Shown here one piece after another: positions 40,347 to 46,688 of a DNA stretch of 64,000 nucleotides. Source of the DNA: Robertkochia marina (GTDB taxonomy: Bacteria; Bacteroidota; Bacteroidia; Flavobacteriales; Flavobacteriaceae); assembly GCF_004799345.1 (NCBI RefSeq), contig NZ_SSMC01000004.1, positions 186,001 to 250,000 of the forward strand, given 5' to 3'. Each line of letters begins with the position of its first letter. The stretch's first letter is position 1. Made by a program: the position numbers and the translations under genes. The notes under the pieces are model-generated. The model ran no database searches and had not been told where the DNA came from. It saw nothing but the letters and a program-made list of their open reading frames with translations.

Positions 40347-40431
40347 TTGATCTTATCATAACTGTTAGGAATATTAGTTATTTTTATTTGAATTTATTCT
40401 AAATAAGTTTTTTCAACCCCAATTTGTTCTG

Positions 40432-40439: not shown

Positions 40440-40480
40440 CGCACAGATAATTTTGTTATTTGTAATTAATCTAAATAAAT

Positions 40481-41702: not shown

Positions 41703-42836
41703 ATGTTAGTTATGAATTTTATCAAAGGTATCACGATTATAACAGTCTTTATGGCTCTTGTAGGGTGTAGCAGCAGTAGTGATGGGGATGGAGGAACACA
41801 GCCTGCTGATAATTTTGATCGTCAGGCCATGCTGGAGCACTGGGCAGACAATATTATCATCCCGGCTTTTGAAGACCTGCAACTCGAATTAACAGCACTC
41901 TCTGCAGCTAAAGATGATTTTGTAGCCGAACCCGGAGAGGCAACCCTGTTTGCCCTTAGAGAACAATGGCTGGAAGCGTATAAGACCTGGCAATATGTTG
42001 AGATGTTTAATATAGGGCAGGCAGAAACCATGTTCTATGCTTTCCAAATGAATATTTACCCTGTTACTGTTGCTGATATTGAAAGTAATATCGCCACAGG
42101 AACCTACGATCTCAGAAGTGTGAACAATAATGATGCAGTAGGGTTTCCGGCGATGGATTATCTGCTGCACGGACTGGGTGCAGACGATGCTGAAATATTA
42201 GCCCGATATACCACCGCAGAAGGCGCAGAAGGGACCAGGAAGTATTTATCTGATGTTACTGATGAAATGTTAGCGTTGACCGGAGAAGTACTTGAAGATT
42301 GGAGGTCGAATTACCGTGATACCTTTGTGGCTAACCTGAACAACAATGCTACCGGATCTGTAAACAAACTCACCAACGATTTCATTTTTTATTATGAGAA
42401 AGGACTCAGAGCAAATAAGTTCGGTATTCCTGCCGGGAATTTCTCTGCTACTCCCTTTCCGGAAAAGGTAGAAGCCTATTACAGTACTGAGGTTTCAAAA
42501 ACCCTTGCCTTAAATGCCTTGAATGCAGTACAGGATTTCTTTAACGGTAAATCGTATGGTACCTCAGGTACCGGAAGCAGTTTCACGGCTTACCTGGATT
42601 ATCTGCGAGAGCTTCAGGGGGGTGATGATCTGAGCGCCGCCATCAACCAACAATTGAATACTGCACGAGAGCAGATCCAGACCCTTGACGATAATTTCTC
42701 AAGACAGATAGAGACCGATAATACCATGATGACAAAGGCCTACGATGAGCTGCAAAAGGCGGTCGTACTCCTTAAAGTGGATATGGTACAAAAGTTGAAT
42801 ATTACCATCGATTATGTAGATGCAGATGGTGATTGA
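41703..42836 (+). CDS. imelysin-family (M75/EfeO-like) lipoprotein
   Basis: A 377-residue lipoprotein (signal FMALVGC; a second ATG nine bases in, at 41712, is an equally good start). The imelysin domain covers about residues 35-370: HWADNIIIPAFEDL, LREQWLEAYKTWQYVEMFNIG and the late KAYDELQKAVVLLK. The family motif GxHxxE appears here as GFPAMD, so the His and Glu are replaced. Imelysins are linked to iron uptake in studied bacteria. DUF4856 lies 25 bases upstream and the HTTM gene downstream. Confidence 0.88.
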   Translation: MLVMNFIKGITIITVFMALVGCSSSSDGDGGTQPADNFDRQAMLEHWADNIIIPAFEDLQLELTALSAAKDDFVAEPGEATLFALREQWLEAYKTWQYVEMFNIGQAETMFYAFQMNIYPVTVADIESNIATGTYDLRSVNNNDAVGFPAMDYLLHGLGADDAEILARYTTAEGAEGTRKYLSDVTDEMLALTGEVLEDWRSNYRDTFVANLNNNATGSVNKLTNDFIFYYEKGLRANKFGIPAGNFSATPFPEKVEAYYSTEVSKTLALNALNAVQDFFNGKSYGTSGTGSSFTAYLDYLRELQGGDDLSAAINQQLNTAREQIQTLDDNFSRQIETDNTMMTKAYDELQKAVVLLKVDMVQKLNITIDYVDADGD

Positions 42837-42901: not shown

Positions 42902-44281
42902 ATGGGTATTGATCTGAATACATATTTCCGCAAGCAAACGGATGTGGCTCCCCTGGTGGTTTTCAGGATGTTCTTTGGGGTCATGATGTTTCTCAGTGTC
43001 CTGCGATTCTGGGCTAATGGGTGGATAGAAAAACTCTACCTCGAGCCTGAATTTCATTTCACCTATTACGGCTTTGAATGGGTCAGGGTGCCGGGAGCCT
43101 ATACCTATCTTATCTTCCTGCTTTGTGCATTGTCTGCCCTTGGCATTGCCCTGGGATACCGCTACAAATGGTCGGTGCTGCTGTTTTTTCTGTCTTTTAC
43201 CTACATCGAATTGATGGATAAAACCACCTATTTAAATCACTATTACTTTATAAGTCTTCTCAGCTTTCTGTTGTTTTTTCTACCTGCTGCGGCCCGCTTT
43301 TCTTTGGATGCCCAACGACAGGGGAAACTCTATCTGAAGGTACCGGCCTGGAACATAGATGCCGTTAAGTTAATGCTGGGCATTGTGTATTTTTATGCCG
43401 GTTTGGCCAAGATAAATTCAGACTGGCTTTTTCGCGCCATGCCTCTTAAGATCTGGCTGCCCTCTAAATTTGATCTCCCGCTTATTGGAGACAGCCTGTT
43501 GCAGCAGGAATGGTTTAATTTTGCGATGAGCTGGGCAGGAATGATCTACGATCTTGCGATCCCGTTTCTACTGCTTTATAAAAGAACCCGGCTATTTGCT
43601 TTTGCCCTGGTCGTATTTTTTCATGTTTTTACGCGAGTGCTTTTTCCTATAGGTATGTTTCCGTATATCATGATCGTTTCTGCCCTGATATTCTTTGACG
43701 CGGGGGTGCACCATAGGATCATGGAAATCGTGAAGCGTATAGGTACTGCATTAGGCCGAAAGCGTCCCACTCCTCCATTACAGGTTATTCCCGAGTACCG
43801 TTTACCGATATTACAGGAGAAGCTGATAAAACCCCTACTGATGGTGTTCTTTGTTATCCAATTGCTGTTGCCTTTTCGATATCTACTCTATCCGGGTGAA
43901 CTGTTCTGGACCGAAGAGGGCTTTCGGTTCTCATGGCGCGTCATGCTGATGGATAAGGTTGGGTATACCACCTTTACCATTGTAGACGGGAAGACGGGGA
44001 AATCATTTGAGGTTGATAACACCGATTTTTTAACCTCTTTTCAGGAAAAGCAAATGAGTTTTCAACCCGACTTTATTTTGGAATACGCTCATTACCTGGG
44101 CGATCATTTTAAGGCACAGGGACATCAGAACGTTGAGGTATACGCCAGGAGTTATGTGGCCCTGAACGGAAGAAAAAGCACTCCTTTTGTAGAGGAGGAC
44201 AGAGACCTCTATAAAGAGAAAGAATCGTTTAAACATAAAGATTGGATAATCCCTTTTAAAGATGAGATCAAAGGCCTTTAA
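42902..44281 (+). CDS. HTTM-domain membrane protein (vitamin-K-dependent carboxylase-like)
   Basis: A 459-residue inner-membrane protein; the ATG at 42902 is preferred over an in-frame TTG at 42881. Six or more hydrophobic segments make up the HTTM domain (about residues 15-290), the membrane part of vitamin-K-dependent gamma-glutamyl carboxylase. DKTTYLNHYYF places His113, and YFYAGLAKINSDWLF places Lys170, where I recall the proposed active-site His160 and Lys218 of the human enzyme. The C-terminal tail (about 300-459) is soluble and has no known domain. It overlaps the TonB receptor gene by 20 bases. Confidence 0.85.
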   Translation: MGIDLNTYFRKQTDVAPLVVFRMFFGVMMFLSVLRFWANGWIEKLYLEPEFHFTYYGFEWVRVPGAYTYLIFLLCALSALGIALGYRYKWSVLLFFLSFTYIELMDKTTYLNHYYFISLLSFLLFFLPAAARFSLDAQRQGKLYLKVPAWNIDAVKLMLGIVYFYAGLAKINSDWLFRAMPLKIWLPSKFDLPLIGDSLLQQEWFNFAMSWAGMIYDLAIPFLLLYKRTRLFAFALVVFFHVFTRVLFPIGMFPYIMIVSALIFFDAGVHHRIMEIVKRIGTALGRKRPTPPLQVIPEYRLPILQEKLIKPLLMVFFVIQLLLPFRYLLYPGELFWTEEGFRFSWRVMLMDKVGYTTFTIVDGKTGKSFEVDNTDFLTSFQEKQMSFQPDFILEYAHYLGDHFKAQGHQNVEVYARSYVALNGRKSTPFVEEDRDLYKEKESFKHKDWIIPFKDEIKGL

Positions 44282-46688
44282 GTTTCTAGTTTTATTTTTG
44301 ATCAGTACCTCAGTATTTTCCCAGGTGGAGGTGAAAGGGCGAATCACCGACGCTGAAAATGGTGAGCCCCTGCCTTTTGTAGAGGTTTATGACAAGGCCA
44401 GGGGGCTTTTGACTTCCTCTGATGCCGAAGGTTATTATAGTTTCACCACCACAAAAACGGAACTAACCCTGATATTCTTATCCTATGCCCATGAGATCAA
44501 AGAAGAGGTCCTTTTGTTGGACGGCCAGGATAAGGAGTTGAATATTCTCCTTGAGACCCTTACAGTTGCACTTACCGAGGTAGAGGTAACCGCTCGCAGA
44601 AAAAGGGTATTTGAACTATCCCGATTGAAAGATGTGGAAGGCACAGCCATCTATGCAGGTAAGAAGACCGAGGTGGTTTTGGTAGACCAATCAATGGCCA
44701 ACCTGGCTACCAACAATGCCCGGCAGATCTACAGCAAGGTGGCCGGATTAAATATTTACCAGAATGACGATGCCGGCCTGCAGTTGAACATTGGAGGTCG
44801 TGGCCTGGATCCTAATCGTACCTCTAACTTTAATACCCGGCAGAACGGTTACGATATCAGTGCCGACGTATTGGGATATCCTGAAAGTTATTATTCTCCG
44901 GCTGCCGAAGGTATAGAAGAAATTCAAGTAGTTCGCGGCGCGGCCTCCTTACAGTACGGTACCCAGTTTGGGGGGCTGGTGAACTTTAAGATGAAGCAGC
45001 CTGTAGCAGATAAACCCCTGGAGGTAATTACCAGGAATACCACGGGAAGCTATGGACTCTACACTAATTTTACCAGTGTAAGCGGCTCAGCAGATAAATG
45101 GCATTACTATACCTTCTTTAATTACAAAACAGGCGATGGCTTCAGGCCTAATTCTGAATTCGAATCTAAAAATGTCTACGCCTACCTGGGTTATGATCTC
45201 AGCGAAAAGACCACCCTGTCCGGTGAGGTTACCTACCTGCGCTATCTGGCAAAACAGGGAGGGGGGCTTACCGATCTGATGTTCGAGCAGGATCCGTTTC
45301 AAAGTAACAGAAGCAGAAACTGGTTTGAGGTAGATTGGTTTTTGTACAACCTTAAGCTGGACCATGCTATTTCTGAGAACACCAATTTTACCTTCAACTT
45401 TTTTGGACTCGATGCTTCCAGGTATGCGCTTGGTTTTCGAACCAACAGGGTAGATCAGGTAGATCCGGGTACGGAGCGGGATCTCATACAAGGAGACTTT
45501 AAGAATTATGGTTTTGAGTCAAGATTCCTGAGTAATTATACCCTGTTAGACCGTAAGGCAACTTTTCTGACGGGAATAAAATTCTACAATGCGGATAACT
45601 TTCAGAAACAAGGTCCCGGGAGTGATGGGACCGGCCCTGATTTCAGGTTCTATGAAGACGATTTCCCCAATTATCCGCAACAGTCTCAATTTGATCTGCC
45701 CAATTTGAACCTGGCCTGGTTTGGAGAGCATATTTTTTATCTGAGCGACCAATTTTCAGTGACCCCGGGATTTCGTCTTGAATATATAAGAACGAAAAGT
45801 GAAGGGTTCTTCAAGCGTATAAATACTGATGCAGCCGGTAATGTGATCTTTGAGGAAACCGTTGAAGACAACAGGGATTTTGAAAGAGACTTCCTTTTAT
45901 TGGGAGTCGGGTTTAGTTATAAACCTTCAAGGTTGTTTGAGGCCTATGCCAATATATCACAGAATTACCGCTCTGTAACTTTTTCCGATATCAATATTAA
46001 TAATCCGGCCTTTGCCGTATCGCCTGATATTACTGATGAGAGGGGGTATACGGTAGATGTTGGGCTGAGAGGTAATTACAAAGGGGTCTTAAGTTATGAC
46101 CTGAGTACTTTTGCCATGTTCTACAATGACCGTATAGGTTTTGTTCAAAAGGCTTTGAGTGATGGACGGGTGATCAGCGAACGCGGTAATGTGGGAGACG
46201 CCGTAATGCTGGGGCTGGAATCCTTATTTGAAACCGATCTTGCAAAACTCTCAGGATGGGGTGGTGACTACTCCTGGAGTTATTTCCTGAACCTGGCAAT
46301 GATACGATCAGAATATACCAGGTCTGAGCAGCCCGGCATTGAAGGAAACCAAGTGGAATTTGTACCCGATGTAAACCTTAAAACAGGGATGCAGTTCGGA
46401 TACAGAAACCTGAGAGCAAATGTTCAATATACCTACCTCTCCCGCCAATTTACCGATGCCACCAATTCTGTGGCAGCTAATATTAGCGGAGTGATAGGAG
46501 AGATCCCGGCTTATGATATACTGGATGTATCGCTGTCATATACCTACCGGTTCCTTAAACTGGAGACGGGAGTGAATAACCTTCTTGATAATATTTATTT
46601 TACCCGGAGAGCAACCGGGTATCCCGGACCGGGGATCATACCTTCTGCGCCCAGAAATTGGTATGTATCTTTCCAGGTGAAATTGTGA
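44262..46688 (+). CDS. TonB-dependent outer-membrane receptor, iron type
   Basis: An 808-residue outer-membrane receptor. Order: signal peptide (ending TSVFSQ), carboxypeptidase-regulatory-like domain (VKGRITDAENGEPLPFVEVY, about 23-105), plug domain (NNARQIYSKVAGLNIYQND, LNIGGRGLDPNR, IEEIQVVRGAASLQYG) and a 22-strand-type barrel ending YVSFQVKL. It looks closest to FecA-like iron-chelate receptors, but the ligand cannot be read from sequence. The start overlaps the HTTM gene, so it closes the DUF4856-imelysin-HTTM operon. Confidence 0.92.
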   Translation: MRSKAFKFLVLFLISTSVFSQVEVKGRITDAENGEPLPFVEVYDKARGLLTSSDAEGYYSFTTTKTELTLIFLSYAHEIKEEVLLLDGQDKELNILLETLTVALTEVEVTARRKRVFELSRLKDVEGTAIYAGKKTEVVLVDQSMANLATNNARQIYSKVAGLNIYQNDDAGLQLNIGGRGLDPNRTSNFNTRQNGYDISADVLGYPESYYSPAAEGIEEIQVVRGAASLQYGTQFGGLVNFKMKQPVADKPLEVITRNTTGSYGLYTNFTSVSGSADKWHYYTFFNYKTGDGFRPNSEFESKNVYAYLGYDLSEKTTLSGEVTYLRYLAKQGGGLTDLMFEQDPFQSNRSRNWFEVDWFLYNLKLDHAISENTNFTFNFFGLDASRYALGFRTNRVDQVDPGTERDLIQGDFKNYGFESRFLSNYTLLDRKATFLTGIKFYNADNFQKQGPGSDGTGPDFRFYEDDFPNYPQQSQFDLPNLNLAWFGEHIFYLSDQFSVTPGFRLEYIRTKSEGFFKRINTDAAGNVIFEETVEDNRDFERDFLLLGVGFSYKPSRLFEAYANISQNYRSVTFSDININNPAFAVSPDITDERGYTVDVGLRGNYKGVLSYDLSTFAMFYNDRIGFVQKALSDGRVISERGNVGDAVMLGLESLFETDLAKLSGWGGDYSWSYFLNLAMIRSEYTRSEQPGIEGNQVEFVPDVNLKTGMQFGYRNLRANVQYTYLSRQFTDATNSVAANISGVIGEIPAYDILDVSLSYTYRFLKLETGVNNLLDNIYFTRRATGYPGPGIIPSAPRNWYVSFQVKL

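Follow-up and report, generated by a model that had tools for sequence, protein, structure and literature searches.

A homologue of the vitamin K-dependent gamma-carboxylase core in a conserved imelysin and TonB receptor gene cassette of Robertkochia marina

GGCX, the human relative of the protein described here, is the vitamin K enzyme that activates blood-clotting proteins. According to the part of PMC12589487 on these residues, the Glu side chain of the substrate is held in place by N159 and H160, K218 is the base that deprotonates the hydroquinone, W223, G259, F286, F294 and F299 line the vitamin K pocket, V210 and A214 belong to the pocket and tunnel, and K217 and R436 act in substrate handling. 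Among bacteria, Leptospira interrogans has a glutamyl carboxylase homologue presumed to have been acquired horizontally (PMC4555120), and the imelysin operon of Leptospira consists of imelysin, di-haem and imelysin genes, with no carboxylase named in the passages of PMC13066512 and PMC7567364 that describe it. For Riemerella anatipestifer, Table 4 of PMC5609570 lists RAYM_09779 as a TonB receptor, 09784 as a vitamin K-dependent gamma-carboxylase, 09789 as an imelysin lipoprotein and 09794 as a hypothetical protein. Their ratios, in that order, are 2.11, 2.64, 3.07 and 2.41 at low iron and 1.90, 1.39, 1.93 and 1.36 in a fur mutant with iron; loss of fur does not abolish their response to iron (2.70, 2.77, 2.92 and 3.07), therefore Fur is not the whole story in this organism. 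Mutation of a regulator in Bizionia argentinensis lowers an imelysin-like gene and a TonB receptor gene, which may be those of such a cassette (PMC9478572). No relevant match came from PMC5429918, PMC9331221 or PMC9723704.

We analysed a window of 64,000 nucleotides from Robertkochia marina (assembly GCF_004799345.1, contig NZ_SSMC01000004.1, positions 186,001 to 250,000), in which the gene for an HTTM protein of the vitamin K-dependent carboxylase (VKGC) family lies third in the order DUF4856 (start 40481), imelysin (41703), VKGC (42902) and TonB receptor (44262). The features are collected in Table 1.

Table 1. Features of the Robertkochia marina cassette, in positions of the window.
Feature	Position	Strand	Basis
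Fur-box-like palindrome 1	40386..40404	.	Differs at 3 positions from the Fur-box of the PMC5609570 main text
Fur-box-like palindrome 2, directly before the first gene	40458..40476	.	3 mismatches to the same consensus (PMC5609570)
DUF4856 lipoprotein, 398 aa	40481..41677	+	PF16148 1.1e-145; Cys18 at lipobox (by eye)
Variant imelysin lipoprotein, ends DADGD	41703..42836	+	PF09375 5.9e-31; Cys22 at lipobox (by eye)
Imelysin Glu232 codon, candidate modified residue (inferred)	42396..42398	+	Conservation counts
Imelysin Glu257 codon, candidate modified residue (inferred)	42471..42473	+	Conservation counts
HTTM/VKGC protein, GGCX homologue, 459 aa	42902..44281	+	ATG at 42902; alignments, Pfam, Foldseek, VIA
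Asn112-His113 = GGCX Asn159-His160	43235..43240	+	Alignments; roles from part of PMC12589487
Lys170 = GGCX Lys218	43409..43411	+	Alignments; role from part of PMC12589487
VKGC lumenal domain, residues 306-455	43817..44266	+	PF22777 1.6e-59
TonB-dependent receptor with N-terminal CarbopepD_reg-like domain	44262..46688	+	PF13715 1.2e-11, PF07715 8.7e-07; start overlaps VKGC gene end

Pfam places the HTTM domain PF05090 at residues 11-266 of the VKGC protein (2.4e-78), followed by a complete VKGC_lumenal_dom (profile 2-152 of 152), a domain that had not figured in the original prediction. When the protein was compared with PDB sequences by phmmer, the best match (E 3.9e-41) aligned residues 7-452 with GGCX 53-505, in the numbering of full-length chains, and all 8 distinct sequences matched up to E 10 were vitamin K-dependent gamma-carboxylase; these chains were taken as human from their numbering and from PMC12589487. 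An AF2 model built from 39 sequences (mean pLDDT 81.7, with low confidence at 326-350) gave 16 Foldseek matches at E<=0.001, of which 16/16 were GGCX. The VIA comparison superposed the model on GGCX 42-510 with Z 30.8 (434 residues, 3.4 A), the next unrelated entry being TMEM35A with Z 9.1 over 112 residues. Membership of the VKGC family is virtually certain, and the resemblance to GGCX is far beyond chance. The protein stops at about human GGCX 510-515 and is the GGCX catalytic core only (about human 42-515), made up of the HTTM membrane and lumenal domains; by alignment and model, the second propeptide lobe and the Arch domain, which lie beyond ~515 in the human enzyme, are absent.

His113, in DKTTYLNHYYF (codon 43238), and Lys170, in YFYAGLAKINSDWLF (codon 43409), are 57 residues apart and had been predicted to correspond to GGCX His160 and Lys218, 58 apart. 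Both phmmer and a multiple alignment place them on exactly these residues; a proper alignment, named beforehand as a possible refutation, did not refute the prediction. W175, G213, F240, F248 and F253 are the counterparts of W223, G259, F286, F294 and F299, and V210, A214, S398 and M402 of GGCX are also kept in the multiple alignment. Among the aligned positions that differ, N158 is replaced by Leu, K217 by Ala169, Y395 by Phe, M401 by Val, H404 by Met and R436 by Gln384, and C99 and C450 are absent. From this division between kept and changed positions, the sites for quinone and side-chain chemistry are kept and those for peptide handling are not. Thus the GGCX-like reading holds for homology, catalytic residues and quinone pocket, but the protein is not a plain copy of GGCX: by alignment and model, the peptide-substrate features K217, N158, R436, C99-C450 and everything past ~515 are missing or changed.

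Residue conservation was counted in 80 proteins picked via PF22777, a domain that does not cover the catalytic positions; they comprise two match sets of 40 each, chosen by hand for spread. Loci L076-L155 were left out of these counts because they had been found with patterns that include YLNHYY. N159 and H160 are present in 79/80 of the proteins and K218 in 80/80. In the 47 whose genes neighbour both an imelysin and a TonB receptor gene, and which share 42-75% identity with the window protein, N159, H160, K218, W223, G259, F286, F294 and F299 are all present (47/47). The single protein with an imelysin neighbour only also has all eight core residues. Elsewhere the cassette proteins vary: the Y395 column is Tyr in 36 of the 47 and Phe in the other 11, and R436 is replaced by Gln or Met. 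Where imelysin and receptor neighbours are lacking (n=32), N and H occur in 31 and Lys in 32, the exception being L053.

The L053 protein (L053:8678-10048) is encoded at the cassette's usual HMGL...IMPDH site, without DUF4856, imelysin or the cassette receptor and with a different outer-membrane-type ORF. It has lost N159, H160, G259 and F286 (now S159, S160, L259 and S286) and sits on a long branch (0.74); the substitutions do not cluster in the core (4/8 core against 14/47 other conserved columns, p 0.42). Another orphan, L214, has an intact active site without partners, and decay of the active site as a rule for partnerless VKGCs, true for L053, was rejected on this second case. As a control we took HTTM proteins without the lumenal domain (16 of 19 weak matches, L290-L305): the Lys218 column is Lys in 16/16 loci and the His160 column is His in 10/14 loci with that column aligned. 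Since HTTM proteins without the lumenal domain often have both residues, the His and Lys pair alone is weak evidence; it is partly a trait of the HTTM family and is not proof of a carboxylase. The whole pocket together with the lumenal domain is stronger evidence. The constancy of Lys in these 16 proteins also hints at Lys-based chemistry across the HTTM family.

DUF4856, imelysin, VKGC and TonB receptor genes recur in this order and strand at 76 of 80 loci, almost all labelled as Flavobacteriaceae genera or uncultured Bacteroidota; of the four exceptions, two run off the end of a contig and two have no detectable DUF4856. One of the cassettes (L081) is that of Bizionia argentinensis JUB59, a strain from which a deletion mutant has already been obtained (PMC9478572). 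In a sample across the phylum, imelysin and TonB receptor genes adjoin VKGC in 34/40 loci, several of which have divergent DUF4856 copies (5/6 tested match PF16148 above cut-off). In a quick tree, whose human branch is long, the cassette VKGCs group as one clade (52 rows, SH-aLRT 99), separate from a second clade (19 rows, 99) encoded between ribF and serS in Flavobacteriaceae. The latter makes up 19/35 of the VKGCs without cassette neighbours and has a member in the Robertkochia marina genome itself (L033:8384-9718, C1:1142413). The genome also contains menB, above cut-off. A single VKOR-family ORF of 528 aa lies far from the cassette (L073:820-2406, own genome C2); it may be a disulfide enzyme because its C-terminal part looks thioredoxin-like by eye.

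An iron context had been proposed for these genes, and it is borne out by the synteny, the Fur-box-like sites and the low-iron induction tabulated for the Riemerella cassette (PMC5609570). The best NCBIfam match of the receptor is the siderophore receptor family TIGR01783, at 106.4 bits and below the cut-off of 223.5. For the Fur-box we used the consensus in the body of PMC5609570, the abstract of which prints another. A site with <=4 mismatches occurs in 91/98 related upstream regions, which count some genomes twice, against 14/490 shuffles and 3/469 random windows. Across the whole window the pattern was not enriched (6 matches, with a mean of 4.42 by chance); the case for these predicted sites is one of position and conservation. 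Taken together, VKGC very probably serves iron uptake.

As had been predicted, both partner lipoproteins are acidic, with mature pI values of 4.11 and 4.18. The window imelysin is the only one in the genome and is a variant with acidic or neutral residues at the positions where the site His residues normally stand. GFPAMD stands in place of GxHxxE, so that the motif His is absent; its column is P in 103/126 VKGC-linked imelysins and His in 18/18 canonical imelysins, and the column of Glu257 is His in 17/18 canonical imelysins. E232 and E257 are each present in 126/126 VKGC-linked imelysins, against 2/11 (p 1.5e-12) and 4/11 (p 2.1e-9), both as raw counts, in same-type imelysins encoded next to a di-haem gene, a pattern of conservation such as targets of VKGC would show. 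However, the strong raw counts fall to non-significance with phylogeny, there being 1 independent contrast on supported branches of the tree and 3 on all; both residues also occur together in two of the di-haem-linked proteins (L309 and L311). Because of these 1-3 contrasts we rejected E232 and E257 as VKGC-specific Glu and treat them as candidates only.

The C-terminus of the imelysin was also considered as a substrate tag. A DGD end is found in 128/130 imelysins adjoining VKGC and is mostly absent from other imelysins at those loci, and the pattern D-x-D-G-D-stop (TAA/TGA) occurs once in the Robertkochia marina genome. DxDGD as a tag for VKGC was rejected, since it also ends 11/11 di-haem-linked imelysins and since a variant imelysin of Sinorhizobium, adjoining a cytochrome gene, ends in FADGD on a replicon without a VKGC match. 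The DxDGD end marks the variant imelysin subfamily, independently of VKGC. D375 and D377 (window 42825-42833) are present in 126/126 VKGC-linked and 11/11 di-haem-linked imelysins and absent from 18 canonical imelysins.

DUF4856 matches FEA1_rel_lipo NF038033 weakly, scoring 23.6 bits where the cut-off is 250. Foldseek with its AF2 model (pLDDT 94.7) returned no match at E<=0.001, and the best VIA entry, a catenin M domain with Z 7.7, is as uninformative as imelysin 3n8u with Z 4.8. Of 198 genomes, 33 have the family; VKGC and imelysin accompany it in 31 of these, and both are missing from the other 2. In two genomes without VKGC (G166 and G185) the invariant residues H222, D225, E226 and E332 persist, and DUF4856 as the substrate of VKGC was rejected on this basis; E221 and E169 vary in them, two genomes being too small a number for a verdict. 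At L324:5206-9091, DUF4856 adjoins a TonB receptor in a genome without VKGC or imelysin matches, which suggests that the DUF4856-receptor pair works without them.

The DHOR di-haem protein PF06537 has no match in the Robertkochia marina genome. Imelysin was found in 47/198 sampled genomes, 41 with VKGC of either clade and 6 without; long DHOR, defined by a best E<1e-70, is present in 6/6 of those without VKGC and in 7/41 of those with it (Fisher p 1.6e-4, calculated without phylogeny). In three hybrid loci (L057, L184 and L210) imelysin, di-haem, variant imelysin and VKGC genes occur together. As both proteins coexist there, no strict exchange of VKGC and DHOR applies, and VKGC as a strict replacement for DHOR was rejected.

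With GGCX homology, predicted fold, catalytic residues, quinone pocket, cassette and Fur-box-like promoter established by sequence and model, VKGC is probably catalytically active. We tentatively favour, at somewhat less than an even chance, an active menaquinol/O2-driven enzyme for iron uptake that probably modifies a carboxylate of a co-exported lipoprotein. Lys170 would deprotonate menaquinol, whose reaction with O2 would yield a strong base; this base would abstract a C-H proton next to the carboxylate bound by Asn112-His113. Addition of CO2, converting Glu to Gla or achieving something equivalent, might follow on a cassette lipoprotein, most likely the imelysin while it crosses the inner membrane, and iron would thereby be offered a harder carboxylate site close to the TonB receptor. 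That VKGC acts on a protein carboxylate is close to an even call; carboxylation specifically of Glu in the partner imelysin or in DUF4856 is doubtful. The most specific version is unlikely. In it, a propeptide-free VKGC, drawing on menaquinol, O2 and CO2, would gamma-carboxylate Glu of the variant imelysin (candidates E232 and E257) and so make this lipoprotein a Gla-based site for iron on the cell surface.

Other explanations were weighed against this modification of a lipoprotein. An unrelated resemblance or chance motif is so improbable as to be negligible and was rejected, being contradicted by the phmmer E value, the two Pfam domains and the Z score against GGCX. VKGC could instead be a menaquinol epoxidase or oxygenase that does not carboxylate and that alters its partner, or the redox state of iron, by hydroxylation, oxidation or O2 consumption. 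The quinone pocket and base are fully kept while the peptide contacts N158, R436 and K217 are changed, the distribution of long DHOR looks as if VKGC were a stand-in redox partner, and the Leptospira homologue, which reportedly epoxidises vitamin K without carboxylating test peptides, offers a precedent; however, the Glu ligands H160 and N159 are as invariant as the base (47/47), and VKGC occurs together with DHOR in the three hybrid loci. An epoxidase-only role, though itself rather doubtful, stays close to the carboxylation reading.

Chemistry on a small molecule, in which the target of deprotonation or carboxylation by VKGC is an iron carrier rich in carboxylates (a citrate-like siderophore) and imported by a FecA-like receptor, would suit a protein without the propeptide lobe, a siderophore/FecA-like receptor (albeit below cut-offs) and a Glu pocket that binds a carboxylate (as described in part of PMC12589487). 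Against it, the gene immediately ahead of VKGC is that for imelysin in nearly every cassette and in each of the three hybrid loci, which favours a protein partner; we consider this reading improbable. Lower still do we place a non-catalytic VKGC, serving as a quinone-binding membrane scaffold or lipoprotein chaperone. No bacterial cassette member has a known activity, and the Lys, near universal in HTTM proteins, could for that reason be structural; but the eight pocket and catalytic residues are constant in the 47 cassette proteins in spite of their divergence from the window protein, and partnerless L053 has lost four of the eight.

If protein carboxylation is true, it would to our knowledge be the first natural bacterial use of vitamin K-dependent carboxylation chemistry. 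It would also suggest that the core enzyme had a function that preceded the one it has in animals. Moreover, since the clade supplies fixed partners, a regulator and a growth condition, the role of bacterial VKGC relatives is now testable. The original prediction had called the system undescribed; as far as searches of open-licence literature go, this holds for the idea of the modification, but not for iron regulation of such a cassette, which is already tabulated in PMC5609570.

In comparison with known systems, the VKGC protein has in common with GGCX (PDB 9wfc, 9l6q, 9bvk and others) the HTTM and PF22777 domains, N159/H160/K218, the vitamin K pocket and the fold, whereas human GGCX ~516-758 has no counterpart here and the gene partners, which are candidate substrates only, differ from those of GGCX. 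The ribF-serS VKGCs resemble it in the two domains and in the catalytic residues N159, H160 and K218, but differ from it in retaining N158 and M401, in a His at the Y395 column and in standing without cassette partners. The Leptospira protein is, by its description in PMC4555120, likewise a bacterial homologue of glutamyl carboxylase. In Riemerella, RAYM_09779-09794 are the same gene types by consecutive locus tags and are induced at low iron (PMC5609570), a likeness by gene names, with the hypothetical protein as a possible DUF4856. The imelysin - di-haem - imelysin cassette of the P. aeruginosa PA4370-PA4372 type, as described in part of PMC3143127, likewise has a variant imelysin without the motif His, is iron-regulated and, in some genomes, lies near a TonB receptor as here; where that type has a GxHxxE imelysin and a di-haem protein, Robertkochia has DUF4856 and VKGC.
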